Shown one piece after another: positions 37,447 through 55,940 of a DNA stretch of 58,924 nucleotides (its first letter is position 1; every line of letters begins with the position of its first letter). The DNA is taken from the NCBI GenBank assembly GCA_016223085.1, contig JACRPS010000011.1:304511-363434 (forward strand), read 5' to 3'. A program made the position numbers and the translations under genes. This stretch comes from Chloroflexota bacterium (GTDB lineage: Bacteria > Chloroflexota > Anaerolineae > Aggregatilineales > Phototrophicaceae). The notes under the pieces were generated by a model. That model did not search any database and was not told the origin of the DNA. It was given only the letters and a program-made list of their open reading frames with translations.

Positions 37447-37645
37447 CCAGTGATCTCCTGATAAATGCGTGTAGTAGCGCGATTATGCCTCGCAAAGTTT
37501 GAAGCATAGCCATTTCAGGCTAATTTGGCAAACTTGCTCAAACATAAACGATTAAATTTTATTAAATGTAGCTGTTTTCCGGCATGGGGCTATGCTACAA
37601 TCGGCGCAAGCTGAATCTGAGCCGGGCAAAAGGAGAACAGCCGGT

Positions 37646-37942: not shown

Positions 37943-37976
37943 CTATTCTAGCCCGCTTCAACGTTCAATCAGGATG

Positions 37977-38007
37977 CAAACGCCCGGCAGTTAACACCGG
38001 GCGTTTG
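37977..38007. terminator. Bidirectional terminator between convergent genes
   Basis: An 11-bp perfect stem (CAAACGCCCGG/CCGGGCGTTTG) with a 9-nt loop lies between the CBM48 and DUF3536 stops. ATTTT follows on the plus strand. Confidence 0.75.
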
Positions 38008-38011
38008 ATTT

Positions 38012-39433
38012 TCACCGTTTTAGCAGGTCAAGCTGAAATTCTTCCAGCACGCTGTGCAGGATGTCGGTGCCGCTCACCGGGCTGTTGGCGGAGCGCACCA
38101 CCGCCATATCCAGCGGGAAGCGGTCGTTTAAGTCCTGCCCGCTGGCCTGCTGCGCCAGTGTCAGCGCCGCCGCCGCGCAGGCCACCGCGTAACGCGGCTG
38201 GCGGCTGTCCAGCCGGTTATCGGTGAAGGTGTAACTGTTGTACATGCGCTGCGCCAGCCGTTCCGCCAGGAACAACTGCTTCAACTGTTGGCGATGCCCG
38301 ATGCTGATCTTCGGGATGTGTTCGCTGATGAAGTCGTCGGCATCCACCGTACCGACGATCACCGGCGCGTACCGGTCGCGCAGTTCCCAGGGGTCCACGC
38401 CATACGAACGCACCAGTTCTTCATACACCCGGTCCACTTCGCTGGCGGCGTTATCCAGCGCGCGCCGCAGCGCCCCTTTCCAGGTGGTGTCCTGATGCGC
38501 ATCGGCAAAGCCGGTCAGCCACTGCGTCAGCCCTTCGTAGTTGCCCCAGCTTGTTAATTCCCTGATCTGTACCGTTTGTGTCGGCGGATGCTGGACAAAA
38601 TACTGGTCGAGCGTGGTGATCTGGTAGCCGGCGCGGGACGCTTCGTATTTCACCAGCCAGTACAAAAATTCTTCCTCACCGGCGAAGTGGTGGCCGAAGG
38701 TTTCACCCGCCGTCGCCAGCAGTACCAGCGGCCCGATGTTTTTCCGCGCCGGGCCAAGTACCTGGTCTACCCAGCGGCCCGCGCCGCCCAGGTTGTGAAT
38801 GTTAAACGAGATTTGCGCCGATAGTTCATCGTTGCGCACAAACACGGCCATGGTCGCGCCGTTACCCAGCGCCACGTTAAACGGCCCCGCCCCCGCGCCG
38901 GGTGACCAGTCCTGAATCTGCTTGGCCGCCAGCACCGTATACTGGATGCCCGCCTCGCGCAGCAGGCGCAGCGTTTCCAGGTCTACCGCCAGCTCCGGCA
39001 GCCAGAAGCCAAGCGGCTGGCGACCAAATCGCTCCTCGAACGCCGACACGCCCCAGAAAACCTGCGTTCGTTTATCGCGCTTGCGCGCCAGTGGCAGGAT
39101 GATGTGATTGTACGCCGTCGCCAGCGCATTCCCCGCCGGCGCTTGGGTAGCATAGGCTTCCCTGTCGGCATTCACAATCGTTTCGTATACGTCGTGGGCG
39201 TTCACTTCCAGCCACTTCACCAGTGCTTCGGAGAAGCTGTAACTGATGAAGCTGAAGTTGCCGCGTTCGGCGTTCGGGCGGTAGGAAGTCGCCGTGATGC
39301 GCTCGTTCCAGTTCTGGAACGGCGCCGCTTCCGGTTCGACCACCTGGCCGGGGGGACTCTCCAACGGGTTGCCACGCGGCGGCTGGCTGAAATGCCCGTG
39401 CACGCACAGGCAGCTTCGTTCAAATTTGGACAT
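38012..39433 (-). CDS. GH57-family protein with DUF3536
   Basis: The 473-residue protein has the GH57 opening HGHFSQPPRGNP (12-23) and the nucleophile-region FWLPELAVDLETL with E147, then DUF3536-type sequence (about 285-473). The frame reaches 39490, but ATG 39433 has GGAGG a few bases upstream. GH57 enzymes act on alpha-glucans as amylases, transferases or branching enzymes; DUF3536 members have no settled activity. Place next to glgC-glgA suggests glycogen work. Confidence 0.88.
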   Translation of the reverse strand: MSKFERSCLCVHGHFSQPPRGNPLESPPGQVVEPEAAPFQNWNERITATSYRPNAERGNFSFISYSFSEALVKWLEVNAHDVYETIVNADREAYATQAPAGNALATAYNHIILPLARKRDKRTQVFWGVSAFEERFGRQPLGFWLPELAVDLETLRLLREAGIQYTVLAAKQIQDWSPGAGAGPFNVALGNGATMAVFVRNDELSAQISFNIHNLGGAGRWVDQVLGPARKNIGPLVLLATAGETFGHHFAGEEEFLYWLVKYEASRAGYQITTLDQYFVQHPPTQTVQIRELTSWGNYEGLTQWLTGFADAHQDTTWKGALRRALDNAASEVDRVYEELVRSYGVDPWELRDRYAPVIVGTVDADDFISEHIPKISIGHRQQLKQLFLAERLAQRMYNSYTFTDNRLDSRQPRYAVACAAAALTLAQQASGQDLNDRFPLDMAVVRSANSPVSGTDILHSVLEEFQLDLLKR

Positions 39434-39556
39434 CGTCCCCTCCTCGTTAAATATAGTTTCCAGACCGAGGCGTCTGTGCCCGATTTGCATCTAGCTTAAT
39501 CACCTGCGCGCCCCACCGCGCAGTGACAAAATGCCGGGAAACGCAGCGGGACATCA

Positions 39557-40819
39557 TCACTTTTTCTTGTAACCGATGGTTGTATTGCTCGGCACGATCT
39601 TGTTGGTGTACGCCGCAAAATCCTCCAGCCGCAAATCCGTGCCCAGCACTGCACTGTGACCAATGGTGTACCCTGCCGGCACGTGCGTATTTTTGCCGAC
39701 ACAGGTGATGCCCAGTTCGCCCATTTCCAGGATTTTGCCAACGTGAGCGTTGTGGCCGATCACCACGATTTTGTCGAGGATGCAGCGTTCCACCACCGCG
39801 CCGGCCTCGATGTACGTGTCCGTCAGCACGATGGACTCGCGCACGACGGCGTTTGGTCCCACGTACACCCCCGGCGACAGCACCGAGTTTTCCACCAGTG
39901 CGCCTTCCGATATCACCGACCCGTCGGTGATGAGGCTGTTTTTGACGGTCGCGCCGGTATGGATATGCACGGGCGGACGTTCCTCGCTGCGGGTGTGAAT
40001 GACCCACGTCCGGTCATTCAGGTTGAGCGACGGCGGCGACGCAATCAAATCCATGTGCGCTTCCCAGTAGGCATCAATCGTCCCCACGTCTACCCAGTAC
40101 CCGCCGTAGGGATAGGCGTAGACGTTCATGCCCTCGATCACCATGCGTGGGATAATGTCCTTGCCGAAGTCGTGATTCGACGCCCTGCGCTTCTGGTCTT
40201 CCTGTATCTGCTGCTCCAGCACGGCATAGTTAAACACGTACACGCCCATACTGGCCAGGTTACCGGGTGGGTTGGCCGGTTTTTCAACAAACTCGCGCAC
40301 GCGGTAATCATCGTCCACGTCGAGGATACCATACCGGCTGGCCTCGTCCATCGGCACGCGGATGGTGCAAACCGTCGCGTCGGCCTTCCGCTCGCGGTGG
40401 AACTGAATCAGCACGTCGTAGTCCATCTCGTAGATGTGATCGCCTGAGAGAATGAGCACGTAATCAGGCCGCCCGCGCCGCACGAAGTTTAAGTTCTGCG
40501 CCACCGCATCCGCCGTGCCGGCATACCAGTCAGTATCCGCCCGCCCCTTGTACGGCTGCAAAATCTGCACGCCGCCGGTGAATGAACGATCCAGATCCCA
40601 GGGACGCCCGCGCCCAATGTGGTCGTTAAGGCTGTGCGGGCGATACTGCGTCAGAATCAGCACGTCAAAAATGTTGGAGTTGACGCAGTTGCTTAACGTG
40701 AAATCAATAATGCGGTACTTCCCGGCAAACGGCACCGCCGGTTTGGCGCGTTTGGCAGTTAACGTCACCAGACGTGTGCCTTCGCCGCCGGCCAGAATGA
40801 CAGCTTTTACTTTTGCCAT
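39557..40819 (-). CDS. glgC: Glucose-1-phosphate adenylyltransferase
   Basis: The 420-residue enzyme shows the nucleotidyltransferase motif GGEGTRL (11-17) with [20 protein letters not shown], the substrate loop [23 protein letters not shown], and a left-handed beta-helix at the end. It makes ADP-glucose, the donor for GlgA. Its start lies 13 nt inside the end of glgA, so the two are coupled. Allosteric type cannot be told by eye. Confidence 0.95.
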
Positions 40820-42285
40820 GAAAATCCACCTCGTCTTTTGATAAGCGCCTTGCGATAAACTTCAATATACTGCCGGGCACTGTTGTCCCAGCTAAAGTCG
40901 CGCTGCATCGCCCGGCGCTGCATCCGCTGCCACGCGTCACGCCGGCTGTGGAAGGTGTCCAGCGCCCACAGCACCGTGTTATACAGCGCTTCGGCCTCCT
41001 CCCACTGGAAGACAAAGCCCGTGCCGCGCTCCGCCGGGCCGTTGTCGTAATTTTCAACCGTATCGGCCAGTCCGCCGGTTTCCCGCACCACCGGCAGCGC
41101 ACCGTAGCGCATCGCCAGCATCTGGCCGATACCGCACGGCTCGTAATGGCTGGGCATCAGAAACAGATCACAGCCAGCATAAATCCGCTGCGCCAGCGCA
41201 GCGTTATAACCGATGTATGTGCGCGCCCGCCACCAGTAATCCTGCCCCAGCCGGGAGAACTGGCGGTCGTACTCCGGTTCGCCTGACCCCAGGCCGATGA
41301 ACTGCACGTCGGTGCTGCCCAGCAGCCGCCGCAACGCCGGAATCAGCAGGTCAATGCCCTTCTGCTGCACTAGCCGGGTTACGATGCCCAGCACGGCCAC
41401 ATCGTCGCGCACTTCCAGCCCGAAGTCGGTTTGAAGCTGGCGCTTGTTCGGCGGGCGATTTTCCACGAAGTTATCGGCGTTGAAGTTTGAGACAATCAGC
41501 GGGTCAGTGGCTGGGTTCATCGCCTCGGTATCAATGCCATTCAGGATACCCACCAGATCGTTCACGCGTGTGCGAATCAGGCCATCGAGGCCGTAACCCA
41601 TGTACGGGTACTGGATTTCGACGGCGTAGCGCGGGCTGACCGTCGTCAGCATGTCCGAATAGGCGATGGCAATCGCCATCAGGTTATTGGTTAAATCCTG
41701 GTACACCAGATCGGGCTGGTGGCGACCGGGCACGCCGAGTTCCCACAGCCAGCCGCCGGCATGGTCGCCCTGATACGCCAGGTTGTGGATGCTGAGGATG
41801 GAGGCCACCTGCGCCCAGGTCGGGTAATGGCGGCTTTCGTGCAGCAGGAACGGCACCAGACCGGTATGCCAATCGTTGACGTGGAACACATCCGGGAACC
41901 AGTCTTCGCGCCCGCGCAGTTCCCAGGCAACCGCCATCGTCGCCTGGCTGAAGAAGATAAAACGTGGTACGTCCCATTCCCACGTGCTGTAGACCTGATT
42001 TTCGTCACCAAAGAACGGCCAGCCCTGAATGAAATAATACGGCACACCCTGGTAGACGGTTGAATACACCTGCACGTTCACCGTGCCGGTGCGGCGCGGG
42101 AATGGAAACGAAAACAGCGGCGTGATGTGATAGCGTTCGGAGTCAATGTAGCCGTAGTACGGCAGCATCACGCGGGCATCTACCCCCAGCTGGCGCAGCG
42201 CCGCCGGCAGACTCCCGACCACATCGGCCATGCCGCCTACCTTCGCAAACGGCGCGGCTTCCGCGCTGACAAACAGGACATTCAT
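40807..42285 (-). CDS. glgA: Glycogen synthase (GT5)
   Basis: The 492-residue enzyme starts [27 protein letters not shown], with the ADP-glucose KVGG loop at 15-18, and has [11 protein letters not shown] and the late [36 protein letters not shown] at 42291 is possible; the ATG is taken. The gene overlaps glgC by 13 nt. A palindromic repeat lies between it and the branching enzyme. Confidence 0.94.
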
Positions 42286-42320
42286 GTTCAACGGGTTTGC
42301 CCCCTTGTGTTTTTGCGCGC

Positions 42321-42345
42321 AGGGCGCACGGCTGTGCGCCCCTAC
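42321..42345. repeat. Palindromic intergenic repeat, copy 7, overlapping a stop codon
   Basis: AGGGCGCA and TGCGCCCCT pair around CGGCTG; the minus-strand end reads GTAGGGGCGCA like the other copies. Its GTAG contains the TAG stop of the branching enzyme gene. Confidence 0.75.
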
Positions 42346-44066
42346 GGTAGCTCTGCAAACCAGTGATAATCCACGTCCGGGAACACCTTATCCAGTTCCC
42401 AGTATTCATCGGCCAGTGCTCGGTTCGGCGCGCCGCGCTCCAGGCTGGCCGCCAGCTTCTCGAAGCGTTCGACATGCTGGTTAAAGCGCCCGATGGCGTA
42501 TTCCCGCGCCTGCCCGGTTGTGACCAGAAACGGCCAGTCGGAACTTTGCAGCAGCAGCAGTTCGCGCGCGGTCTGGTTTAAGACAGCCAGCGCATCACCC
42601 GGCGCGTCAGGAAAGGCAGCCACCAGCCGTTCCATCCGGCGTTCGGCTTCGTGAATCGGCGGCCACATCCAGTGGGTATCGGCATTGTCCCAGGTGAAAT
42701 GATTGCCCCCCGCGCCCCATGAACTTTCCGGCAGGTCCAGCACTTCCGCCGGCGGGTGGCTGGCAATGTGCTGGCTGGCGGTTGTCAGTTCGATGTCAGG
42801 ATTGCTTGCCAGCAGGCGCAGCACCTTGCCCAGCCAGTCCACCCCCTCGAACCACCAGTGACCAAACAGCTCCGTATCGTAAGCTGAGGCGATCAGACCA
42901 TACTGCCCGGTCTGCCGCTGATAATCGCGCAGCAGATCGCCCACCAGATGGGCGAAATGTTCGGCGTGCTGGTCAACCTTCTCGGCAGCCCAATCAGGAC
43001 GGTACAAATCCTTGGCCGCCAGGTCAATTTTCGTCCCCGTTACCCGCCAGTATTGCAGGCCGCTGCTGCCGGCGCGTTTGTGAAATTCGCGGTAATCAAA
43101 ATCGCCAGGGTAGCCCCAGTCCGCGCTCCACACCTGCATACCGGTGCGGTGGTCGCGCCCGATCACGGCCACGCCGGAATGGTGTTGTGCGTCCGGCCCG
43201 GCGGCAGTTTCGCTGACGTAATACGGTTGGAAGGTGGTCGCCGGACGCTCCGGCGGTGGCTGCTGTCGCGCCGGAATCACGTAGCGCCGTGTGATCGCTC
43301 CATACGGCCCCAGCACATCACCCGCCGCCACGCCCACCGGCAGGCCGCCGGTGATAGTGTGCGTTTCGCTGAAAAAGACTTTCAGGCCATAACGCGCCAG
43401 CCACGTTTCCAGTCCGGGACGAACGCGACCATCGGCGGACACGTAAGCCGGACGGTAGGCGCACTCCGGCAGCCAGATCGCCGTCGGCGGGCGGCCAAAG
43501 CAGCGTTCGTAACTCTGCGCCGCCGTTTTAAGTTGCGCGGCAATCGAACTGTCGCGGCTGAGCAGCGGCAGGTACCCGTGTGTGGCCGCGCTGGTGATGA
43601 TTTCGAGATACCCGTCATCCTGCAGCCGCCGGAACGCGCCGATAATGTCACGGCTGAAGCGGTCACGGAAGGCGCGCTGCACCGCCTCATACCGGCGCTG
43701 GTACCACTCCGCCAGATAACGCAGATGCAGGTCAGGCGAATCCGGTGCAGCGCCATCGCTGAAGAAGGAGATATCCTGCCGCGCGGCTTCAACACGGTCA
43801 TTCAGATACTGGTCAAAATGATCGAGGACGATCGGGTCGGTTAGCTGTTCCGCCAGCACGGGGGTGATGCTCAGTGTCAGGCGGAAGGGCACGCCGTCGT
43901 CTTTCAGATCGTAGAGCGTTTGCAGCAGGGGGATATAGGTTTCGCTGGTGGCTTCGTGAATCCACTCCTCACCATGCGGCCAGCGCCCCGCCAGACGCGC
44001 ATAGGGCAGATGGGTGTGTAAGACAAACGTGAAAGCTCCAATCGCACCCAAACCGTTTCGCTCCAC
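42342..44066 (-). CDS. GH57 1,4-alpha-glucan branching enzyme
   Basis: The 574-residue protein is a GH57/DUF1957 branching enzyme: opening FTFVLHTHLPYARLAGRWPHGEEW, nucleophile E201 in IWLPECAYRP, and acid/base D397 in IASAYDTELFGHWWFEGVDWL. It would form alpha-1,6 branches in the glycogen that GlgA makes and takes the place of the GH13 GlgB, of which there is none here. The start is GTG at 44066; no strong ribosome site is seen. Its stop codon lies within a palindromic repeat. Confidence 0.92.
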   Translation of the reverse strand: MERNGLGAIGAFTFVLHTHLPYARLAGRWPHGEEWIHEATSETYIPLLQTLYDLKDDGVPFRLTLSITPVLAEQLTDPIVLDHFDQYLNDRVEAARQDISFFSDGAAPDSPDLHLRYLAEWYQRRYEAVQRAFRDRFSRDIIGAFRRLQDDGYLEIITSAATHGYLPLLSRDSSIAAQLKTAAQSYERCFGRPPTAIWLPECAYRPAYVSADGRVRPGLETWLARYGLKVFFSETHTITGGLPVGVAAGDVLGPYGAITRRYVIPARQQPPPERPATTFQPYYVSETAAGPDAQHHSGVAVIGRDHRTGMQVWSADWGYPGDFDYREFHKRAGSSGLQYWRVTGTKIDLAAKDLYRPDWAAEKVDQHAEHFAHLVGDLLRDYQRQTGQYGLIASAYDTELFGHWWFEGVDWLGKVLRLLASNPDIELTTASQHIASHPPAEVLDLPESSWGAGGNHFTWDNADTHWMWPPIHEAERRMERLVAAFPDAPGDALAVLNQTARELLLLQSSDWPFLVTTGQAREYAIGRFNQHVERFEKLAASLERGAPNRALADEYWELDKVFPDVDYHWFAELP

Positions 44067-44120: not shown

Positions 44121-45350
44121 TCACGCCGGCGGATTAATCGGCAGCACCATCGTGAAGATGCTGCCCTGCCCCTGCTCGCTGCGCACCGTCAAATACCCCC
44201 CGTGCGCTTCTGTCACTGACCGCGCTACAAACAGGCCCTGCCCCAGCCCGCGCGGGTCGAGCAGCTTACCGCTGGACGTGCGCGGTTCGCCCCGGTAAAA
44301 CCGCTCGAAGATGTGCGGCAGGTCTTTCTTGGAAATACCCACGCCGGTGTCCACCACCTGAATCGTCACCCGCTTGGCATCGCTGCCGCTTGCCATGACG
44401 ATGATGTGCCCGCCCGGTTCGGTATAGCGAATTGCGTTCTGTAACAGGTGCCCCAGCGCCCAGCGCAGCCGCTGGTCATCCCCCACCACCTGCAATCGTT
44501 CCACGTCGCGCAGCATCACCGCCACGTCCAACTGCGCCCGCTTCACCTCCGGCGTCACGCCGTTGACCACGTTCCAGATCAGTTCTTCCAGATTGACCGG
44601 GTCGTGGCGGATGCTGAACGCCTGCGCGCTCATCTCGCTGATGTCCAGCAGTTCCACAATCATCCGGTCGAGAATGTCTACGTTGCGGCTGAGCGTTTCG
44701 AGGAAGCGGCGGTTCGGCGGGCGGTCGCCGGGCTGGTTCATAATCACGTCGCTCATGCCCTTGATGACCGCCATCGGCGTCCGCAGTTCGTGCGAAATCG
44801 CCGTCACAAACTCGTTTTTGAGCCGGTCGGAGAGCGCGTCACGGGTGACGTCGCGCAGCACGATCAACGTGCCCAACCGCTGCCCCCGGCTGTCAGCAAC
44901 GGCGGCCACCTGCGCGCCCAGAATCATGTTGTTGACCTGAATGCGCGTTGGTTCGCCCAGCGGCGCGAGTTCAGACTCCACCTGTGTCACGTCGCGGTAA
45001 GCGTTAAACAGTGTGCCCAGTTCGCTCTCCCAGATGTCCTTGCGGCTGCCGATCAGCCGTTTGGCGGCGGCATTCACCAGCACGATGCGCCCATCCAAGT
45101 CCTGCATGATGATACCTTCGCTGATGGTGGCGAGGATGCTGTTCAGGCGCTCAATCTCCAGGTCGCGCCGTTTAATGGCGCGCTGCAACTGCCGGTTGCG
45201 CTCAGCCAGATCAGGCACGGCGGGTTTACCGGGCGTGTTTGACCGCAGCCGCAGCCCCTGATACAGCCGGCTGAATAACCGCTCGGTGGCCGTCCCCAGG
45301 CTGTTCACCCGGTTGATCGCCCCACTGACTTCACGTGCATCGTTGGTCAT
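44121..45350 (-). CDS. PAS-domain sensor histidine kinase (soluble)
   Basis: The 409-residue protein has a coiled N-terminus, a PAS domain (about 65-170), HisKA with H187 in AISHELRTP, and HATPase with NAIRYTE, DTGVGISKKD and GLGQGLFV. There is no membrane segment. The frame is open to 45419; ATG 45350 with AGGTAG nearby is chosen. It is divergent from the receiver gene at 45551, with an inverted repeat between, so that receiver is its best candidate partner. Confidence 0.9.
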   Translation of the reverse strand: MTNDAREVSGAINRVNSLGTATERLFSRLYQGLRLRSNTPGKPAVPDLAERNRQLQRAIKRRDLEIERLNSILATISEGIIMQDLDGRIVLVNAAAKRLIGSRKDIWESELGTLFNAYRDVTQVESELAPLGEPTRIQVNNMILGAQVAAVADSRGQRLGTLIVLRDVTRDALSDRLKNEFVTAISHELRTPMAVIKGMSDVIMNQPGDRPPNRRFLETLSRNVDILDRMIVELLDISEMSAQAFSIRHDPVNLEELIWNVVNGVTPEVKRAQLDVAVMLRDVERLQVVGDDQRLRWALGHLLQNAIRYTEPGGHIIVMASGSDAKRVTIQVVDTGVGISKKDLPHIFERFYRGEPRTSSGKLLDPRGLGQGLFVARSVTEAHGGYLTVRSEQGQGSIFTMVLPINPPA

Positions 45351-45368: not shown

Positions 45369-45394
45369 GTCAGAACATGGTGTTATGTTCCGAC
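45369..45394. promoter_or_regulatory. Candidate operator: GTCaGAACAT-N6-ATGTTCcGAC
   Basis: Ten-base arms with one mismatch flank six bases in the 200-nt gap between the kinase and receiver genes, 19 nt from the kinase start. The GAAC/GTTC spacing is ten, not the four of a LexA site. TATACT at 45453 may be a -10. Confidence 0.45.
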
Positions 45395-45550
45395 AACGTA
45401 AAATTTTCGATATATCCACCGGCCTTTATGCTGTCGGTGTTCTTCATTTCAGTATACTAGACATAGCCGCTGCGGCGAAAGTTGCCGAAATCGGCGCATA
45501 AAATTATGATTGGGTTATGACTCGGTTTGCAGCGTGACAAGGAGTCGAAT

Positions 45551-45991
45551 TTGTCTACGTGGATGGTGGTGGAAGACGAGCCGGATATTTACGAAGTGCT
45601 GCTCGCCATGTTTGAAATGTGGGGGATCGAGGGGGTGGCCTTCGTGGATGGTGAGGAAGCAGTTGCCTGGATTGACGATGTAAACAACAAACGCTTCCAG
45701 GGCGAACTGCCGGAGCTGGCACTGCTGGACATCCGCCTGCCCGGCGCGTTCAGCGGCCCGATGGTGGGCGAAAAACTGCGCCAGAGTCCCATCCTGAACA
45801 ATATCGCCATCGTGCTGACGACGGCCTACCGGCTGACACCGGACGAGGAGAAGGAAGCCATCGAACAGGCCGGCGCGGACAAGCTGATGTACAAACCGCT
45901 GCCCCGTTTTAACGAACTCCAGCACGTGCTGGAAGAAGTGATCGCGCTGCGCCGCGCCAAGGTTCCCCAGCCGCCGAACGGGCAGAAGTAG
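45551..45991 (+). CDS. Response regulator receiver protein
   Basis: The 146-residue protein is a receiver domain: E8/D9 acid pair, phospho-acceptor D60 in ALLDIRLPG, Thr in IVLTTAY, Lys in LMYKPLP. The start is TTG at 45551 with AAGGAG about 6 nt upstream. It leads a five-gene unit (spacings 6, 7, 3 and 4 nt) with AddB and AddA. It carries no DNA-binding domain, so it would act through protein contact. Confidence 0.88.
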   Translation: MSTWMVVEDEPDIYEVLLAMFEMWGIEGVAFVDGEEAVAWIDDVNNKRFQGELPELALLDIRLPGAFSGPMVGEKLRQSPILNNIAIVLTTAYRLTPDEEKEAIEQAGADKLMYKPLPRFNELQHVLEEVIALRRAKVPQPPNGQK

Positions 45992-45997
45992 GCGGTT

Positions 45998-46744
45998 ATG
46001 GACAACGTTGCGCCTGCGCGGGCACTGGCTCGCCGTTCGTACAATCTGCTGCAACTGGCGTTTGTGGTCGTCGCCATCGGTATCTTTATCAGCATTGTCG
46101 CGCTGCTGGGTTTTGCCATCCCGCCGATTCCGCCGAGTCATCCTCAGTTTGGTCTGTTCAGCTTTGGCCGCACTGCCCTGCTTATCATCGGTATCGCCGT
46201 TGGCCTGCTTGGTCTGGGCATGGCGGTCCGCGCCTTCACCCGCCGTCAGGATAACAATCTGGCGCTGATCGCGGGGGATTATCTGGCACCGCTGTTTGAC
46301 AACCAGTACAGTTTTGTCCGTAACATCAACCGCCCCGGCCTGGGTTACATTGATGCCGTCATGATCGGGCCGCCGGGTGCGCTGGTGTTCCGTATCGTGG
46401 ACAATACCGGCAATCTCGCCAACGAAGCCGCCGAGTGGATGAAACAGAACGCCGCCGGCGAATGGGTACCGCTCGGTTTCAGCCCGACGCGGCAGGCCGT
46501 TGAGGATGTGGACCATCTGCGCACTTACCTCGAAAAACGCGGTCTGGATGTGCCCGTGTTTGGCGTCGTGGTATTTATCGGCGACGAATCCACCGTCACC
46601 ATCGCGGAGCGCGCGCCGGTAGTGCCGGTCAGCCACCTCAACACCCTCGTTCGCAACCTGCAACCCAACTATCTCGCCAACCCGAACCGCATCCCCCACA
46701 GCGTGGTCAGCCGGGTGCGCCGGCTGCTGCTTGATGAGGCCTGA
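45998..46744 (+). CDS. Membrane protein with NERD-like domain
   Basis: The 248-residue protein has two membrane helices (about 18-42 and 58-80) and a cytoplasmic domain that resembles NERD (nuclease-related): GLGYIDAVMIGPPGALVF with D119. Where NERD has E-x-K the sequence reads F-R-I-V (131-134), so nuclease activity is doubtful. It lies six bases after the receiver and seven before addB. The family call is moderate; it could be a scaffold that places the helicase-nuclease at the membrane, which is inference. Confidence 0.6.
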   Translation: MDNVAPARALARRSYNLLQLAFVVVAIGIFISIVALLGFAIPPIPPSHPQFGLFSFGRTALLIIGIAVGLLGLGMAVRAFTRRQDNNLALIAGDYLAPLFDNQYSFVRNINRPGLGYIDAVMIGPPGALVFRIVDNTGNLANEAAEWMKQNAAGEWVPLGFSPTRQAVEDVDHLRTYLEKRGLDVPVFGVVVFIGDESTVTIAERAPVVPVSHLNTLVRNLQPNYLANPNRIPHSVVSRVRRLLLDEA

Positions 46745-46751
46745 ACGTTAC

Positions 46752-49700
46752 ATGAGAACGCAACTGCTGCTGATGCCGGTGGGGGCTGGCAAAACGGCGT
46801 TTGCGCTGGACGCGCTGCTGGATACGCTGCACCCCCAGCCGTTCGCCCGCGCCTGGGTGCTGCTGCCCAATACCCGTCAGGAAGACTCCTTCCGCCAGCG
46901 GCTCGTCAGCCATCCCGATGCCCGCCGTGTCTACTTTAACGTCGAGTTTTTCAGTTTCTACACGCTGTACCAACGCCTGCTGGACATGGCTGGCAACCCG
47001 CAGCGCCAGCTTGACCCGACTGCCCGTTTCCGCCTGCTGCGGAACATTCTGGCGCAGCTTCAGCGCGAGAACCGCCTGCGCGTCTATGGGCAGATTGCCC
47101 ATACGCCCGGCTTTGTTGAAATCGTGGCGGAGTTTATTTACGAACTCAAATACAACCTCATCTATCCTGACGCTTTCGCCGCCAGTGCCGGGACGGACAA
47201 GGACCGTGACCTGGCGCTGATTTACGACACGTATCAGAACCAGCTTCAACAGCACGAACTGGTAGACCGCGAGGGGGAAGGCTGGCTGGCGCTGGAAGCG
47301 CTGGAAGACAATCCGTACCTCGCCGCTAACGTGGCGCTGCTGCTGGCGGACGGCTTCGACCAGTTTAACCCGCTGCAGGCCCGGCTGCTGGCGCTGCTGG
47401 CGGCGCAGGCCGGGCGCACCATCATCACCCTGCCGACCGCGCCGGACGATACCGTAGGCCGCCGTTTCCATCAGGCGATTGAACATCTGCGCGCCGCGTT
47501 TGACGAATACGAAGTGCCGCTGCGCGTGGAACCGGTTGAGCCGGGTTACACCCACGACCGTCACCCGGCGCTGAACCATCTGCTCGCCGCCAGCTTTACG
47601 CCCGACATCACGCCGCGCCCATCGGACGGCTGCCTGACGCTGATCGAAGCGCCCAACCCGGCGCAGGAGGCCGGCGCGGTGCTACGGCGTGTCAAGCGCC
47701 TGCTGCTGTCCGGCAGCCAGCCCGATGACATCATACTCGCGGTGCGCGACTGGGACCGCTACGGGCCGCATCTGGCGCAGGCCGCGCGTGGTTACGGCGT
47801 GCCGGTCGCGTTGCATTACGGCGAACCGCTGGCGGATAACCCCGCCATGATCGCCCTGCTGAACCTGCTCGAACTGTCCACCTTCGATTTCCGGCGGCGC
47901 AGCCTGATTGATGTGCTGCGGTCGCCCTACTTTACGATTCCCGGTCTGGACAGTACCGAAGTTGATCTGTTGGAACGCCTGAGCCGGGCGCAGCGTGTCA
48001 CTGGCGGCAGAGCCATGTGGCTGGAAGCGATTCGGCTGGCGGCTACCGTGACACCGGAGGATGATGAAACCGAACCGTTCACGCTCGACCCCGCCGCCGC
48101 CGAAGCCATAACGGCTGCGCTCACCACTTTTTTTGCTGGCGTGACGCCGCCGCCAGAAAGTTCGCTGGTGGACTACGTGGCATGGCTGGAACGGCTGATC
48201 GGCCCGGACACCGCGCCTGACCCGGATGATGACCCGGTAGCCAGCAGCGGCGGTTATACGGTAAACCTGCTGCGCGGTATTCGGAGCGCCGCGAACGGCG
48301 ATGTCGTCGGTCGCGACCTGACCGCGATGGCCGAACTGAAACGTATTTTGCGCAGTCTGCTGTCGGCGCAGCTATTGTTGCAGGCGCTTGGGGAAGACCC
48401 CCGCCTGGACTGGCGGGCGTTTCTGGACGAACTGAAGCGGAGCATCAACCGCGCCCGCATCGAACGCCGCCACAACCGCGCCGGGCGGGTGCTGGTGACA
48501 ACCGTCGAAAACGCGCGCGGCCTGCCGCACCTGCACGTGTTTATTCTCGGCCTGTCGGAAGGTATCTTCCCCGCGCCCACGCCGGAAGACCCGCTGTACC
48601 TGGACAGCGAACGTCGGGCGCTGGCGGCGAAGGGCATCCCGCTGGAAACCCGTGCCGAACGCGCCGCCGATGACGGCCTGTTTTACGAACTGCTTGGTCT
48701 GGCGCGGGTTTCGCTCACCCTCTCGCGCCCAACGGTGCAGGACGGCGCGCCCTGGCCGGAAAGCCACCTGTGGCGGCGCGTCAAACGGGTGTTCAGCGAC
48801 GCCGACGACCTGGTGCAGCAGAGTCGCATTGGTTTGGGTGGCGTGGTTCCGGCGGGGGATGTGGCCTCACCGGTTGAGGCCGCGCTGGCGGTGGCCGCCG
48901 GCCTCAACCAGTCGCCGCCGGATAATGGTGTGATCGGCCTGTACAACTGGCTGGCAGCCGCGCATGATGCTCACTGGCGGCACATCTGCGCCGGGCGAAA
49001 CATCGAACTGGCGCGTATGTCCCGCGCTCCCCACGACCGCTACACCGGGCGGCTGCGCGACCCGCGGCTGCTGGCGTGGGCAGCCGACGAACTTGGCCCG
49101 CGCCGCGTGTGGAGCGCCAGCCAGTTCAACGACTACGGCACCTGCGGCTTCCGCTTCTTCGCCAAACGGCTGCTAAAGCTGGAGGCGATGGAAGAGCCTG
49201 AAGAAGGTACCGACCGACTGCAATGGGGACTCATCAACCACAAAATCCTCGAAGAGACCTACGGCCACCTTGCCCGCCTCAGCGTCACGATCATGCCGGA
49301 AAACACCGATCTGGCGATTGAAATTCTGCACGACGTGGCCGCCGGCGTGCTGCGCGCCGCGCCGGCACGTTACGGCTTTCGCGCGTCCGCCCTGTGGCAG
49401 CAGGAACAGGCTGCGCTGGTGCGGAAACTGGAAGCCTTCGTCCGGCTTGACTTTTCCGACGATGCACCGATTTCGAAGAAGTTCGACAGCCCGCTGCCGC
49501 GCCAGCCTTATCGTCAGGAAGTACCGTTTGGCACGAACGGGCAGGAAACGATCACCCTGACACTCGGCGGGGAACGGCTGCGCCTGCGTGGGCAGATTGA
49601 CCGCATGGACCGCGTGGGTGATACCGTGATTCTGGTGGATTACAAAACCGGCAGCACGCCAATTCCACGCTCGGAAATGGAACGCGGGCGCAACTTCCAG

Positions 49701-50015
49701 ATGATGCTGTACCTGCGGGTGGCGCAGGAATTGCTGCGAGTTGACCCCGACCCGGACAAACCGACAGCCGTAACTGGCGGCGCGTTTTATCACCTCGGCA
49801 CCCGTAAACTCAGCGGCGATATGCGCCTGGCCGATGAAGACGATGCCGCCGCGCTCGAAGCGGCACAGGAACTTCTGGCGCGTTACATCCGCCAGGCGCG
49901 CCGGGGCAATTTTGCCGTCCATCCCAACAAGGCAGACGGAAGCTGCGTCCATTACTGTGACTTCAGCCGCATGTGCCGCGTCGGGATGGTTAACCGCTTC
50001 AAACGCGAGGGCTAG
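46752..50015 (+). CDS. addB: AddB-type helicase-nuclease subunit
   Basis: The 1087-residue protein has an N-terminal Walker A (GAGKT, K14), UvrD-like helicase remains, and a C-terminal nuclease: D950 in RGQIDRMD and D963-Y-K965. Four cysteines for an iron-sulfur cluster frame the nuclease: C798, C1065, C1069, C1075, with x3 where x2 is common. It makes, with AddA, an end-processing complex for recombination repair. ATG 46752 is chosen; TTG 46731 and ATG 46734 would overlap the gene before. AddA follows after 3 nt. Confidence 0.88.
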   Translation: MRTQLLLMPVGAGKTAFALDALLDTLHPQPFARAWVLLPNTRQEDSFRQRLVSHPDARRVYFNVEFFSFYTLYQRLLDMAGNPQRQLDPTARFRLLRNILAQLQRENRLRVYGQIAHTPGFVEIVAEFIYELKYNLIYPDAFAASAGTDKDRDLALIYDTYQNQLQQHELVDREGEGWLALEALEDNPYLAANVALLLADGFDQFNPLQARLLALLAAQAGRTIITLPTAPDDTVGRRFHQAIEHLRAAFDEYEVPLRVEPVEPGYTHDRHPALNHLLAASFTPDITPRPSDGCLTLIEAPNPAQEAGAVLRRVKRLLLSGSQPDDIILAVRDWDRYGPHLAQAARGYGVPVALHYGEPLADNPAMIALLNLLELSTFDFRRRSLIDVLRSPYFTIPGLDSTEVDLLERLSRAQRVTGGRAMWLEAIRLAATVTPEDDETEPFTLDPAAAEAITAALTTFFAGVTPPPESSLVDYVAWLERLIGPDTAPDPDDDPVASSGGYTVNLLRGIRSAANGDVVGRDLTAMAELKRILRSLLSAQLLLQALGEDPRLDWRAFLDELKRSINRARIERRHNRAGRVLVTTVENARGLPHLHVFILGLSEGIFPAPTPEDPLYLDSERRALAAKGIPLETRAERAADDGLFYELLGLARVSLTLSRPTVQDGAPWPESHLWRRVKRVFSDADDLVQQSRIGLGGVVPAGDVASPVEAALAVAAGLNQSPPDNGVIGLYNWLAAAHDAHWRHICAGRNIELARMSRAPHDRYTGRLRDPRLLAWAADELGPRRVWSASQFNDYGTCGFRFFAKRLLKLEAMEEPEEGTDRLQWGLINHKILEETYGHLARLSVTIMPENTDLAIEILHDVAAGVLRAAPARYGFRASALWQQEQAALVRKLEAFVRLDFSDDAPISKKFDSPLPRQPYRQEVPFGTNGQETITLTLGGERLRLRGQIDRMDRVGDTVILVDYKTGSTPIPRSEMERGRNFQMMLYLRVAQELLRVDPDPDKPTAVTGGAFYHLGTRKLSGDMRLADEDDAAALEAAQELLARYIRQARRGNFAVHPNKADGSCVHYCDFSRMCRVGMVNRFKREG

Positions 50016-50018
50016 CCT

Positions 50019-53000
50019 GTGGAACTGACCGCCGAACAACGCACCGCTATTTACACCCATGACCGCAATCTCATCGTCGTCGCTGGCGCGGGTTCGGGCA
50101 AAACGCACGTCCTGGTGGAACGTTATCTCTCACTGCTGGATGCGAACCGCAACTGGCCGCTGACTGCGCTGGTGGCGATCACCTTCACCCGCAAGGCGGC
50201 GCAGGAAATGCGCGACCGTGTGCGCCGCGAACTGGAACGCCGCCGCGACAGCGCGCCGGACGAGCCGTGCTGGTCGGACTGGCTTGCCAGCGTGGACAGC
50301 GCCCGGATTGATACGATTCATGGCTTGTGCGCCAGTATCCTGCGCGCCAATGCCGCCGAAGCCGGGGTTGACCCCAAATTTGAGGTGCTGGAAGAAGTTG
50401 AAGCATGGCTGCTGCTGGAAGACGCAATCGAGCAGGTGTTGCAAACCGTCGTCAGTGAGGATGACGCCTGCGCCGCGCTGCTGCTGGAATACGGCGCAGA
50501 CACTGTTCGGAAGGCGCTGGAACACCTGATAACCGCCGACATCACCGACCCGCCGCCTGACCCGTTCGCGGAATGGCAGCGCCGGTGGGACGCCGGTTTC
50601 GCCCGCGCCCTGGACAACCTCACTGCCGATGCGGCCTTCTGGAACGCCGCCAACTGGTCACCGGAACGGTGGCCGGATGAGGACTGCGGCGACCGGCTGC
50701 TGGCTGTCTGGCGCGCCTGCTGGGACGCGCTGGCCGTTCTCGACCAGCGGGCGGACGGCGCTGCCTGTCTGGAAGCGTTAAAAACACTGAAAGCGATTAA
50801 AACCAACATCGGCAGCGCTGTCAACTGGGGCTGTAAAGACACGCTGGATGAGGCCAAAGCCGCGCTGCAATCATTACGCCAGACTGCCTGCGCGCTGCTG
50901 GATGTCATCGGCGACCCGCCGGGCGACCTTGATCGCCGCGCTGCCGGGTTTATGCCGCTGTGGTGTACGCTCATCCGGCGGACGCAGCAGACCTACCGGG
51001 ATATGAAGCAGGCAAACGGGGTGCTGGATTTTGACGACCTCGAACGCCTGACCTGCCGCCTGCTGGCAGAGCATCCGGCGGTGTGCGCCCGCTACCGGAA
51101 CGCCGAGTTTAAACATCTGCTGGTGGACGAGTTTCAGGATACCAACGCGGCGCAGTGGGAGATCGTGCGGCATCTGGCCGACCCGGCGCAGCCCGGTAGC
51201 CTGTTTGTCGTGGGTGACGAAAAGCAGTCCATTTACCAGTTCCGGGGTGCGGATGTGAGTGTGTTCGGCCATGTGCGCCAGGTAATTGTGGACACGGGCG
51301 GCAGCGCCGTGCCGCTGGCACAGTCGTTCCGTGCGCACCGCCGGCTGGTGGAGTGTTTCAACCACGTGTTCGCCCACGTGCTGCAAAAAGACCCGGCCAG
51401 CCCGGTCGCCGACTACGAAGTGGAATTCGGTAACGGCATGACCGCCTTCCGCGCCGAAGCCCCTGCCGACACGCCCGCGCTGGAACTGCTGCTGCTCAAC
51501 AAAAGCCTGCTGGACGGCGACGATAAAGCCGATACCTGCCGCCGCTGGGAGGCGTATGAGATCGCCGCTTATCTGCGCTGCGCTGTTGGTGCGGATGGTC
51601 AGCCGCCGCGCCGGGTGTACGACAAACAGACCCGCTCGCACCGCGCTATGCACTACGGTGACGCCGCCATCCTGTTCCAGTCTACGACCCATATTACCCT
51701 GTACGAAGACGCGCTGAAGGCTGCCGGCGTGCCGTATGTCACCGTCGCCGGGCGCGGCTATTACAGCCGTCAGGAAGTCTGGGACGTGCTCAACCTGCTG
51801 ACGGCGTTGCACAACCCTGCCGACAGTCTGGCGCTGGCGGCGGCGCTGCGGTCGCCGCTGTTTAACCTCAGCGATGACGCGCTGCTGGCGCTGCGGCTGT
51901 GCCGTGATGACAGCGGCCAGCGGCTGTTGTGGGATGCGCTGGACAGCGCCGACCACGTGCCCGATGACGAGTTGCCACTGGTCGCGTTTGCGCGGGACAC
52001 GCTGCGAAGTCTGCGCGGGCTGGCCGGTCGCATCACGATTGCCGAACTGCTGCGCGAAATCCTGGCGCAAACCGGCTACCTTGCCACGCTCACCGCCCTG
52101 CCGGACGGCGCGCGGCGGCGCGGCAACGTCGAAAAGCTGCTGGAAAAGGCGCAGGCCAGCGGCCAGGTGATGCTGGGCGCGTTCTCGCAGTATTTGCGCG
52201 ATTTAAGCGAACGCGAAGCGCGCGAGGGCGAAGCGTTGGTAGACACCCAGGGCGCGGTCACGCTGATGACCGTCCACGCCAGCAAGGGGCTGGAATTCCC
52301 GCTGGTTGTGCTGGCGAACGCCGACTGGGAACGCTCGTTTTATGGCGGCGCAGCAGTGCTGCACCATCCGGATCACGGCCTGACGTGTAAGGTTTACAAC
52401 CCCGTTAAAGAAAAACTGGAAGGCGGCTTTGCCCACACACAGGCGGAAACGCTGCTGCGCCGGCGCGAGGAAACCGAACGCAAGCGCCTGCTGTACGTCG
52501 CGGCCACGCGAGCGCAGGATTATCTGCTGGTCAGCGGCCAGATCGCGCAGTACCAGAATGGCAATTGGAAGCTGGGCGGCTGGCTGAACTGGCTGTGGCA
52601 GGGGCTTGGCCTGGATGGAGTCGCACCGCAGACAAGCACCTTGAATCACTACGCCTGGGGCGCGGTCAGCCTGACCGTTCCGCAGCAGGTTCCCCCACCC
52701 GAAGCCCTACTGCGTGGCGATGAACCGGCGGACACCGCCTGGAACCACGATGCAGTGCAGCAGGGCAAACCGCTGTCGGACACGATCCAGCCGCCGCTGC
52801 TGCTCCAGCCCGTGCCCGTTGTAGCGGACGCCCCGGCCCGTCACCTGACGGCCACGCAGCTTGCCGACTTGGGCAGCGCACCCTACGACACCTACTTCCG
52901 CGACCGCTTCCGGCGCGGCGTCCTGCACGATGCCCCGGCGCGCATTGATACGGTCAGCGCGCCGAAGGGGGATGTTTCGCTCCGGCTGGTCGGTGACATC

Positions 53001-53561
53001 GTGCATAAGGTGCTGGGCATGGACAGGCCGCCGGGCTGGTGGCAGGCGCCGGACGAGCGCGACAACCTGAACCGGATTTTGCGCAGTTATGCCTGGCAGC
53101 TTGGCGTGGTGGTGCCCCGGCAACAGCAAATCGCCATCATGGAAGCGCGCCGCTTGCTGGACCGGTTTATCGAGAGTGATGTCTACCATCGGCTCAGCGC
53201 GGCGCAAACGCTGTTCCGCGAACTTCCGTTTGTGTATCGCAGTGATAAACGTATCATTCATGGCGTTTTGGATGTATTATTCCATTCTAACGATTCGTGG
53301 ACTATCATTGATTATAAAACCAGCTATGTGCGCGATTACCTGGGTGACTCGACTGCCATCTACCACCACGCCCGGCGCTATCACCTGCAAGTGGGTGTGT
53401 ACGCCGCAGCCGCGCGCCAGCAACTGGACGGCATTACCCCGAACGTGTATATTCATTACATTCGTTACGGTCAGACAGTCCGGGTCGAAACCAACGAATG
53501 GGAATCTGCCCTCGCTAGACTAGAGGTTTATATCGGGGATTTACTGTTGAGTCGGGAATAA
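50019..53561 (+). CDS. addA: AddA-type helicase-nuclease subunit (UvrD-like plus PD-(D/E)xK)
   Basis: The 1180-residue protein has Walker A GAGSGKT (K28), TFTRKAAQEMRDRV, DEFQDTN, FVVGDEKQSIYQFRGAD, TVHASKGLEFPLVVLAN, YVAATRAQDYL, and a C-terminal nuclease with D1085 in HGVLDVLF and D1098-Y-K1100. It is the 3'-5' helicase motor and a nuclease of AddAB. The start is GTG at 50019. About 100 nt around the nuclease site (53231-53330) are near 36% GC against about 60% around it. Confidence 0.92.
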   Translation: MELTAEQRTAIYTHDRNLIVVAGAGSGKTHVLVERYLSLLDANRNWPLTALVAITFTRKAAQEMRDRVRRELERRRDSAPDEPCWSDWLASVDSARIDTIHGLCASILRANAAEAGVDPKFEVLEEVEAWLLLEDAIEQVLQTVVSEDDACAALLLEYGADTVRKALEHLITADITDPPPDPFAEWQRRWDAGFARALDNLTADAAFWNAANWSPERWPDEDCGDRLLAVWRACWDALAVLDQRADGAACLEALKTLKAIKTNIGSAVNWGCKDTLDEAKAALQSLRQTACALLDVIGDPPGDLDRRAAGFMPLWCTLIRRTQQTYRDMKQANGVLDFDDLERLTCRLLAEHPAVCARYRNAEFKHLLVDEFQDTNAAQWEIVRHLADPAQPGSLFVVGDEKQSIYQFRGADVSVFGHVRQVIVDTGGSAVPLAQSFRAHRRLVECFNHVFAHVLQKDPASPVADYEVEFGNGMTAFRAEAPADTPALELLLLNKSLLDGDDKADTCRRWEAYEIAAYLRCAVGADGQPPRRVYDKQTRSHRAMHYGDAAILFQSTTHITLYEDALKAAGVPYVTVAGRGYYSRQEVWDVLNLLTALHNPADSLALAAALRSPLFNLSDDALLALRLCRDDSGQRLLWDALDSADHVPDDELPLVAFARDTLRSLRGLAGRITIAELLREILAQTGYLATLTALPDGARRRGNVEKLLEKAQASGQVMLGAFSQYLRDLSEREAREGEALVDTQGAVTLMTVHASKGLEFPLVVLANADWERSFYGGAAVLHHPDHGLTCKVYNPVKEKLEGGFAHTQAETLLRRREETERKRLLYVAATRAQDYLLVSGQIAQYQNGNWKLGGWLNWLWQGLGLDGVAPQTSTLNHYAWGAVSLTVPQQVPPPEALLRGDEPADTAWNHDAVQQGKPLSDTIQPPLLLQPVPVVADAPARHLTATQLADLGSAPYDTYFRDRFRRGVLHDAPARIDTVSAPKGDVSLRLVGDIVHKVLGMDRPPGWWQAPDERDNLNRILRSYAWQLGVVVPRQQQIAIMEARRLLDRFIESDVYHRLSAAQTLFRELPFVYRSDKRIIHGVLDVLFHSNDSWTIIDYKTSYVRDYLGDSTAIYHHARRYHLQVGVYAAAARQQLDGITPNVYIHYIRYGQTVRVETNEWESALARLEVYIGDLLLSRE

Positions 53562-53565
53562 GGGT

Positions 53566-54534
53566 ATGCTGTCACGTCTAACCGGTCAATTACCAGCCTG
53601 GGCGCGTTACGACCACCCCGTGACGCGCTACGAACTGGGCAAAACGCGGCTGCTGCCGCGCCGCGCCCAACTGCTCCGCGCCGCCGGGGTTATCCTGCTC
53701 GGCGTGTTGTTATTTGGTGGCGGTTATATCATCGCCACCGGCTTCTTCCAGAACCCGCCAGGTCAGAACCTGACCGAAGCCGCCATGTCCATTCTGTTCT
53801 GGCCGCTGCTGGTGATTCAGATCGTCATGCAGATCGCGGCCCTGGCGCTCACGGTGAACACCGTCGCCGAACAGAAGCGCCGCCAGGCGTGGGACAACCT
53901 GCGCTCGACGGCGGGCGGCGTCAACCTGACGCTGCGCATCCGCTGGGCGTCGGTTTATTACCGGCTGCGCGGCCTGCTGGCGGTGGTCGTGGTGGTGCGC
54001 CTGCTGTTGATCTTCGGGATTCTCTACGATCTGACAGCGTTCCAGGGCAAATACATTGACCTGCTGGTGAACGGCATCACGCCGGAAATATCGCCGCTGG
54101 TGGGCGCGCTGCTGCTGGCCTTCCTGATGACCGCCTCGCTGCTGCTGCCGCTGACCAGCCTGGGTCTGAGCGCCGCTATCGGCCTGCTGTTTTCGGTCTG
54201 GATTCAGCAGCGCACCTACAGCACGCTCGCGCTGATCGTCGGCATCTTTGCCCGCACGGCGCTGGCGGTCGCGCTACTCATTGGCGCGACGCAGTTTATC
54301 CAGGGCCGGCTTACCATCCCTGACCCCGCCGCCTGGCTGCTGATGGGCGGCTTCGCTGCCTTCAGCGACTGGGGTATGTCCTTCCTCAACCTGGGTTTCT
54401 TCAGCGAAATCTGGGCGTCCATCCCCTTTGGCATCTTCCTCGGTGTCGCGCTGCTGCTGTTTGCCATCCTGCAATCGGCCCTGACCGAGTGGGTGCTGAC
54501 GCTGGCAGTGCGGCTGGCCGAGCGCAACGGCTGA
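53566..54534 (+). CDS. Polytopic membrane protein of unknown function
   Basis: The 322-residue protein has about seven or eight membrane helices and a short basic cytoplasmic N-terminus and loop (EQKRRQAWDNLRST). I recognise no named family; some segments recall ABC-2 permeases without the signature. It starts four bases after addA, so it is likely made with it. Confidence 0.75.
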   Translation: MLSRLTGQLPAWARYDHPVTRYELGKTRLLPRRAQLLRAAGVILLGVLLFGGGYIIATGFFQNPPGQNLTEAAMSILFWPLLVIQIVMQIAALALTVNTVAEQKRRQAWDNLRSTAGGVNLTLRIRWASVYYRLRGLLAVVVVVRLLLIFGILYDLTAFQGKYIDLLVNGITPEISPLVGALLLAFLMTASLLLPLTSLGLSAAIGLLFSVWIQQRTYSTLALIVGIFARTALAVALLIGATQFIQGRLTIPDPAAWLLMGGFAAFSDWGMSFLNLGFFSEIWASIPFGIFLGVALLLFAILQSALTEWVLTLAVRLAERNG

Positions 54535-54614: not shown

Positions 54615-55940
54615 ATGAGAATACGTTATACCGCCGCGCTGCTGCTGGCGCTGGTGATGTTATGCCTGCCGGTCAGCAGCCGCGCGCAGGATACTGTTTC
54701 GACTGTATCCCAGCCGGCGACCGAGCAGGACCCGGCGCTGGCCGTTCAGTGGATGCAGTTCCTCTACGACCGCATTCAGGCAGAAGGCTGGACGCCGCCG
54801 GCAGCCTCCCGGCTGTATGCCTATGCTGGCATTGCGCTGTACGAGGCGGTTCACCCTGGTATCCCGGACTCCTTTACCATGAGCCGACAGCTCAATTCCA
54901 TGCCGGATATGCCCGCCATTGACCCCAACACCGTTTATGATTGGCCAACGGTCGCCAACGGCGCGCTGTCCACGCTGCTCACCGGCCTGCTTAAGCCGGA
55001 GTCGGCGCAGCCAATCAGTCTGCTGCGGCAGACGCAGCGCAACGACCGTGCCCGCACCGTTGAGGCGGAGGTGATCGAACGGTCGCTGGCATTTGGCAAC
55101 AGCATCGGCGACCGGCTGCTGGTCTGGGCCAGCGGCGACAATTACGACGCCACCCGCGATCTGCCCTACGAGCCGATGACTGGCGACTCATCCTACTGGG
55201 TGTATACCGAAGCAAACATGAAAGCCAGCGAACCACACTGGGGCATGATCCGTCCATTTGCGCTCTATACGCCGGATAGCTGCGCCGTGCCCCTGAAGAT
55301 GCCGTTTGCTACCGACCCGGATTCCACTTTTTACCGGCAGGCGCTGGAAGTGATGACCGTCGGCAAAAACCTGACGCCGGAGCAGAAAGACATCGCCCGG
55401 CGCTGGGTGGATACGCCGAAAGGCAGCGGCACGCCCGCCGGTCACTGGGTGCTGATCGAAAACCAGCTTGTGGACGTGCTTGATCTTGACCTGGGCATGG
55501 CATCCATGATGTATGGGCTGGTGGGCATCAGCCTGGGGGATGCGTTTATCGCTGCCTGGTCGTGGAAGTACCAGCACCCGCTGCTGCGCCCGGTCACGTA
55601 TATCCAGGAGTACATTGACCCAACCTGGACCTCGTTTGTCGAAACGCCGGGTTTTCCCGAATACCCGTCCGGCCATTCGGTCGTATCGGCGGCGGCGGCG
55701 GAAGTCCTGACAACCATGTTTGGAACGGTCGCCTTTACCGACCGTTCCAGCCGGCGGCTCGGCTTTGACGACCGGTCGTATACGTCCATTGAAGCAGCGG
55801 CTTACGAAGCAGCCATCTCACGGCTGTACGGGGGGATTCACTTCCGCGCCGGCATCGAAAACGGCCTGAAGATGGGCCGCTGCGTAGGACAAAATGTGCT
55901 TAGATTCGTGCGACTGCGCCCCATCCCACAGGGGGAATAA
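54615..55940 (+). CDS. Secreted vanadium-dependent haloperoxidase/PAP2-family protein
   Basis: The 441-residue protein has a signal peptide (1-22) and all three motifs of the family: K318-x6-R325-P, P351-S-G-H354, and S402-R403-x5-H409. These hold vanadate or phosphate. The long helical N-terminal half (MQFLYDRIQAEGWTPPAASRLYAYAGIALYEA) is like that of vanadium chloroperoxidase relatives. The function could be halide oxidation or phosphatase work outside the cell. The frame reaches 54489, but ATG 54615 gives the signal peptide. Confidence 0.85.
   Translation: MRIRYTAALLLALVMLCLPVSSRAQDTVSTVSQPATEQDPALAVQWMQFLYDRIQAEGWTPPAASRLYAYAGIALYEAVHPGIPDSFTMSRQLNSMPDMPAIDPNTVYDWPTVANGALSTLLTGLLKPESAQPISLLRQTQRNDRARTVEAEVIERSLAFGNSIGDRLLVWASGDNYDATRDLPYEPMTGDSSYWVYTEANMKASEPHWGMIRPFALYTPDSCAVPLKMPFATDPDSTFYRQALEVMTVGKNLTPEQKDIARRWVDTPKGSGTPAGHWVLIENQLVDVLDLDLGMASMMYGLVGISLGDAFIAAWSWKYQHPLLRPVTYIQEYIDPTWTSFVETPGFPEYPSGHSVVSAAAAEVLTTMFGTVAFTDRSSRRLGFDDRSYTSIEAAAYEAAISRLYGGIHFRAGIENGLKMGRCVGQNVLRFVRLRPIPQGE

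Follow-up and report, generated by a model that had tools for sequence, protein, structure and literature searches.

The window, i.e. the whole stretch of 58,924 nucleotides analysed here (Chloroflexota bacterium, contig JACRPS010000011.1, positions 304,511 to 363,434), contains five genes on one strand for a stand-alone response-regulator receiver (RR), a membrane protein whose NERD domain has lost its active site (pseudo-NERD), AddB, AddA and a polytopic membrane protein (M5), with spacings of 6, 7, 3 and 4 nt (Table 1). An earlier note, made from the sequence alone, had described these genes as a unit, and the open reading frames (ORFs) read from the sequence bear this out; comparison with relatives indicated a conserved operon in which two units can be separated. 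The explanation that we favour, while leaving substantial room for doubt, is that a receiver-pseudo-NERD signalling module and a housekeeping AddAB-M5 unit have been joined in one family, with AddAB working alone. A soluble PAS histidine kinase, encoded divergently from the operon as the earlier note had seen, would phosphorylate the stand-alone receiver, which would then act by binding the membrane-anchored pseudo-NERD, a putative platform on the membrane's inner face. The second unit would consist of an ordinary AddB-AddA break-repair enzyme and the ABC-2-like M5. In the one family in which the units are joined they are probably co-transcribed and translationally coupled, the repair enzyme being made together with the signalling pair and functioning on its own; AddAB would share the operon with the pair for expression, and perhaps for more.

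A set of 41 genomes (the window's own included) was searched. The NERD protein was found in 36 of them, AddB (by a single query) in 27 and M5 in 31. An AddB profile matched in 29, two of these matches (G017 and G027, E 4e-4 and 6e-4) being fragments that were not counted. The NERD loci mapped numbered 120, of which 84 were distinct, or 82 once two canonical NERDs were dropped. Their unrooted tree divided into 46 rows (the AddB side) and 36 rows, with support of 97 in the Shimodaira-Hasegawa-like approximate likelihood-ratio test. “Beside” in the counts of receiver-NERD and AddB-NERD neighbours means within two genes.

AddB followed NERD in 42 of the 46 loci on one side of the tree and in none of the 36 on the other. 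The gap between the two genes had a median of 6 nt (range -4 to 154, n=41), with some overlaps. This adjacency is more than chance, being kept in 42 of 46 loci although the median NERD identity is 41%. On the same side AddA followed AddB in 31/34 loci, M5 followed AddA in 24/28 and a PAP2 gene followed M5 in only 11/24, indicating that synteny decays past the fifth gene. The link was broken in four AddB-side loci: AddB lay elsewhere for L053 and L114, no AddB was found for L129, and L049 had an AddB fragment only. Sixteen genomes of the set fell outside the window's family (labelled f1). NERD was present in 12 of them, nine of these 12 lacked AddB by profile, and in eight of the nine (the exception being G036) an RR gene stood within two genes of NERD. 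These are metagenome-assembled genomes of 86–100% completeness, in which single absences are soft. AddB-AddA-M5 was found away from NERD in G033 (L058, about 12 kb off) and in G330 (L197, on another contig). In G248, AddB-AddA was divergent to glgA, glgC and glgP, with no kinase, receiver or NERD at the locus; NERD and the receiver were not found in this genome, and the kinase was sought at the locus only. Because receiver-NERD occurs without AddAB, and AddB-AddA-M5 away from NERD, the two units are separable. The gene neighbourhood on which the earlier note had made its proposal depend was kept inside one family and not outside it.

The receiver and NERD look like a functional pair. An RR gene stood beside NERD in 63 of 80 evaluable loci across the order (39/45 on the AddB side and 24/35 on the other), and L162 added one further case, by BLAST only. 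The receiver protein (146 aa) consisted of a receiver domain alone, with no output domain after it by Pfam, and six long RR ORFs likewise showed a receiver and no further fused domains in Pfam. D9 and E10 (acidic pocket), D60 (phospho-Asp), T91 and K115 were invariant across 29 sequences. The start of the gene was a TTG at 45551 behind AGGAG, and the aligned start codon was TTG in 26 of 32 relatives and GTG in the other six. In one genome (G215, L196:9461-10738) receiver and pseudo-NERD were found as a natural fusion, an ORF of 425 aa with no internal stop or N, followed by AddB and AddA. It contained Response_reg (2.7e-10) and NERD (3.9e-4, just below the gathering score) and scored 181.5 bits against the family profile. 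Among the matches listed for the other 30 relatives, hits over both parts held stops or came as separate pieces.

The earlier note's assignment of the membrane protein to NERD was confirmed by a profile search (31.9 bits vs. a gathering score of 22.1), and the protein proved to be membrane-anchored and linked to a receiver; 35 of 36 relatives matched the Pfam NERD model (PF08378) at E 0.01 or better. AlphaFold predicted two long N-terminal helices (7–40 and 51–81, transmembrane) and a compact alpha/beta domain from about residue 87. Arginines precede the first helix and follow the second, a placement that would fit a NERD domain on the cytosolic side of the membrane. To examine the active site, the 82 family rows were aligned to six different canonical NERDs. 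E89, D117, E132 and K134 of the canonical proteins were each lost in 82/82 rows and mostly replaced by A, Y, R and V, L or T. Only D119 of the PD-(D/E)xK active site was kept (82/82) and E-x-K occurred in 0/82, so the E-x-K loss that the earlier note had read in the window protein extends to the whole family. The family thus resembles PF08378 in sequence, in predicted fold and in D119, G127, G138 and W147 (each in 82/82 rows and in the canonical references), and differs from it by the loss of the motif-I Glu, one Asp and the E-x-K pair, by the two N-terminal transmembrane helices, and by conserved residues of its own, E143 (74/82) and D170 (77/82). That active-site residues were replaced and other positions newly conserved suggests that the protein has taken on a new role and has not simply decayed, and the pseudo-NERD is probably a repurposed binding platform.

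Structure searches gave nothing telling for the NERD protein, so the claim of a NERD fold rests on Pfam and the motif alignment. Searching solved structures by sequence yielded one weak match, to the transmembrane part (E 0.13); Foldseek returned nothing at E 0.001 or better, the best being EndoMS (0.025); and the top three structure-search rows matched the transmembrane hairpin only. That best match and several VIA rows (Cdn1, Can2, EndoMS, McrBC and a Holliday-junction enzyme, all of which we take to be PD-(D/E)xK proteins; Z 6.8–8.6) lie in a range that the tool calls common. In a class-wide search, 86 of 298 genomes matched the NERD protein at E 1e-10, with strong matches only in the window's order. 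Of the NERDs inspected from elsewhere, the references used in the alignment retain E-x-K, and L092 and L094 lack it; rows L089, L093, L097, L098 and L100 were left out of this comparison. These two represent another NERD-like family in the class, of about 237 aa with T-V-K in place of E-x-K, perhaps a second independent loss.

AddB retained Walker A, the nuclease DYK motif and four Cys, all invariant in nine AddB proteins; the Cys spacing is C-x3-C-x5-C, and the four residues presumably bind an iron-sulphur cluster. DYKT was located at 963 in AddB and 1098 in AddA. Both proteins missed the NCBI equivalog cut-offs (addB 157.7 of 903.7 bits, addA 405.1 of 707.65 bits), a result that concerns equivalog naming and not function, the models being named for Gram-positives. 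As the ATPase and nuclease motifs and the four Cys of AddB are kept, we take the AddAB of the window to be an ordinary repair enzyme.

M5, the other protein for which the earlier note had proposed a profile search, matched no Pfam family, and 18 relatives gave scattered weak single hits only. Its predicted structure aligned with the ABC-2 permease NosY (7znq_y) with Z 13.4 and rmsd (root-mean-square deviation) 4.3 over 227 residues, and the best Foldseek E was 0.037. For a helical protein a Z of about 13 lies at the edge of the tool's telling range; the listed rows were nearly all ABC transporters and covered most of the chain. The predicted fold of M5 is thus that of the membrane part of an ABC-2 transporter. 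M5 may differ from these permeases in lacking a partner ATPase: by eye, no ABC ATPase was picked out inside the operon or up to two genes away at seven loci that carry distant M5 homologues, the rest of the genome not being searched. Two arrangements involving M5 were seen elsewhere. In L129 (9941-11706) NERD stands directly before M5, in the genome where AddB was not found. L176 (3351-7686) carries four ABC-2-like membrane proteins in tandem, two of which give weak matches to M5; the array has a W-E/D-x-L-V-x-x-G motif, and no ABC ATPase was seen between its members.

The divergent kinase comprised PAS, HisKA and HATPase domains and had no hydrophobic segment, hence no transmembrane helix; an alternative GTG start is possible at 45419. 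Among the loci that could be evaluated, a divergent kinase lay no more than four genes away in 36 of 41 on the AddB side and in 12 of 32 on the other. A second, divergent receiver was found in 25/41 and 9/32 of these loci, respectively, and was absent from the window and its four nearest relatives. The inverted repeat that the earlier note had reported between kinase and operon exists, in the form of short repeats (13-nt arms, 85%; 10-nt arms, 90%). The four nearest relatives do not retain these repeats, which therefore have no evidential value, and the repeat was rejected as a regulatory site. A different element of the region, the -10-like CAGTATACTA, is a probable promoter element; it and the AAGGAGTCGAA-(T/C)TTG start region were conserved in the window and the four nearest relatives.

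Several observations weigh against two separable units with an independently working AddAB. At loci L191, L193 and L194 NERD-AddB-AddA is kept although no receiver separates the kinase from NERD, a pattern that favours a NERD-AddB tie, and retention in 42 of 46 loci exceeds what loose co-expression needs, unless addBA has no promoter of its own. The receiver-NERD fusion was found in 1 of 31 genomes searched and may reflect a stop codon lost by error, and in the f8 genomes G031 and G037 the nearest RR lay far from NERD. When the tree was rooted with a canonical NERD outgroup, the 36 rows and 45 of the 46 became sisters, and AddB-linked L162 fell at the base, with a long-branch warning; a five-gene join that was ancestral and then broken elsewhere is compatible with this tree. 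The same NERD-AddB tie and rooting, together with the short or overlapping gaps and a nuclease fold that keeps D119 and could retain affinity for DNA, speak for the signal-controlled, membrane-located DNA-end-processing complex of the earlier note, in which the pseudo-NERD, with M5, would hold AddAB and the receiver would switch it. We regard such a complex as unlikely, and a dedicated one as unsupported, given that eight relatives outside f1 keep receiver-NERD without AddAB, that AddAB persists without NERD in G248, that the link is broken in four AddB-side loci, and that the NERD domain carries a slight excess of acidic residues (14 K/R vs. 17 D/E). A more specific form, in which the phosphorylated receiver gates a pseudo-NERD docking platform that, in this family, captures AddAB and tunes DNA-end repair at the membrane to the glycogen or energy state, appears more doubtful still; if true, such a platform would be a new type of output for two-component systems.

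About as improbable as the membrane complex, in our judgement, is a neutral joining, in which addBA-M5 came to be placed downstream of a signalling pair unrelated to it, lost the promoter that it had and was kept there for expression only. The two sides of the tree are a single change apart, and what lies downstream of NERD varies by lineage, being AddB, glgP or, for f8, a protein of some 460 aa (with LysM in the one scanned), as a neutral joining would allow; against it stand the retention, four departures aside, at a median identity of 41% and the keeping of AddB in the three loci where the receiver was lost. A defence or DNA-uptake system, also raised by the earlier note, is very improbable. 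A NERD-subtype endonuclease does occur in a rare defence system described, in the passages cited here, as largely confined to Chloroflexota (PMC12458937). PADLOC gave no hit for the receiver, NERD or M5, a search in which an undescribed system would not show; its hits for AddB and AddA were mostly models of helicases (GajB) and nucleases, whose scores came from shared domains; the NERD protein, the one protein searched in this way, had no relative in the phage, plasmid and viral-contig collections; and the conserved flank, a recurrent one, is a glycogen cluster. With nothing specific from these searches, a defence or mobile origin was rejected.

To our knowledge, hardly any function is known for NERD proteins, and SmdA of Staphylococcus aureus is the only experimentally studied bacterial NERD that we have come across. 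SmdA is membrane-anchored, is needed for cell morphology and, like the pseudo-NERD, lacks several of the most conserved NERD residues (PMC9040797). It differs in having one transmembrane helix, in being monocistronic and in being conserved in Staphylococcaceae, and the passages of that report drawn on here mention no receiver or AddAB beside it (PMC9040797). AddAB next to phosphorelay genes, which the earlier note had held to be outside the usual picture, has a precedent in an alphaproteobacterium: in the bvrR/bvrS operon of Brucella, addB-addA are co-transcribed with the two-component pair, as found by reverse-transcription PCR (PMC9491525). That operon has 16 genes and places addB and addA a long way downstream of the pair, belongs to a different phylum, encodes in BvrR a transcriptional regulator, and has no NERD in the gene table (PMC9491525). 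Relative to known AddAB, the window pair shares the AddB-AddA arrangement, the Walker A and DYK motifs and the four invariant Cys, and differs in its operon partners, its sub-equivalog scores and its Cys spacing. The receiver-NERD pair was not described in the titles or abstract openings of the literature searched. A NERD family with no active site, with conserved residues of its own and with a phospho-receiver partner to which it is joined, in one genome, as a single polypeptide offers a testable case of a nuclease fold turned signalling partner, in which the output of a two-component system would be neither DNA binding nor a known enzyme. The comparison also holds a lesson on gene order, the AddAB link being limited to one family and the receiver-NERD link spanning the order.

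Table 1. Features of the window around the receiver-NERD-AddBA-M5 operon
Feature	Position	Strand	Evidence
Alpha-glucan phosphorylase, GlgP type	34870..37446	-	TIGR02094 7e-262
GH57 glycoside hydrolase	38012..39490	-	PF03065 2e-25
GlgC glucose-1-phosphate adenylyltransferase	39557..40819	-	TIGR02091 449.9 bits, cut-off 424.9
GlgA glycogen synthase	40807..42291	-	TIGR02095 520.4 bits, cut-off 328.45
GH57 1,4-alpha-glucan branching enzyme	42342..44066	-	PF03065 and PF09210
PAS histidine kinase, ATG start, divergent from operon	44121..45350	-	PAS_8, HisKA, HATPase_c
CAGTATACTA, -10-like palindrome (AGTATACT) in divergent intergenic region	45450..45459		Identical in window and four nearest relatives
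Receiver (RR), stand-alone	45551..45991	+	Response_reg 1.4e-11; D60, T91, K115 invariant
Membrane pseudo-NERD	45998..46744	+	NERD 2e-7; AlphaFold2 (AF2) predicted local distance difference test (pLDDT) 88.8; hydropathy; motif loss
AddB, ATG start	46752..50015	+	ADDB_N 3e-23, PDDEXK_1 2e-34; Walker A, DYK, four Cys kept
AddA helicase-nuclease, GTG start	50019..53561	+	TIGR02785 7e-121, UvrD-helicase, PDDEXK_1; Walker A, DYKT kept
M5, polytopic membrane protein, predicted ABC-2 permease-like fold	53566..54534	+	AF2 pLDDT 83.4; NosY 7znq_y
PAP2/vanadium-haloperoxidase-like protein	54615..55940	+	PAP2 1.5e-8; sixth gene in part of relatives

In five loci of f8 type (L145, L147, L151, L155 and L157), NERD lies between a methyltransferase-like gene (recognised by eye) and the gene for the protein of about 460 aa, with a gap of 1 nt to the latter in four of the five and no receiver adjoining NERD.

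A glycogen cluster (34870-44066) adjoins the kinase gene, and its gene order is kept in many relatives. Of the AddB-side loci, 26 of 46 had a glycogen gene within 9 kb, as did 16 of 36 on the other side; seven and five loci, respectively, had none despite full flanks, and the remaining 13 and 15 could not be judged. In eight loci NERD was followed by glgP within two genes. With the cluster next to the kinase, the signal to the platform may be carbon or energy state, and glycogen synthesis is the best lead to what the platform controls. In f6, distant M5 homologues (L172:887-2875 and L173:7718-8650) adjoin a gene that by eye resembles a glycogen-debranching one, a possible second link to glycogen.

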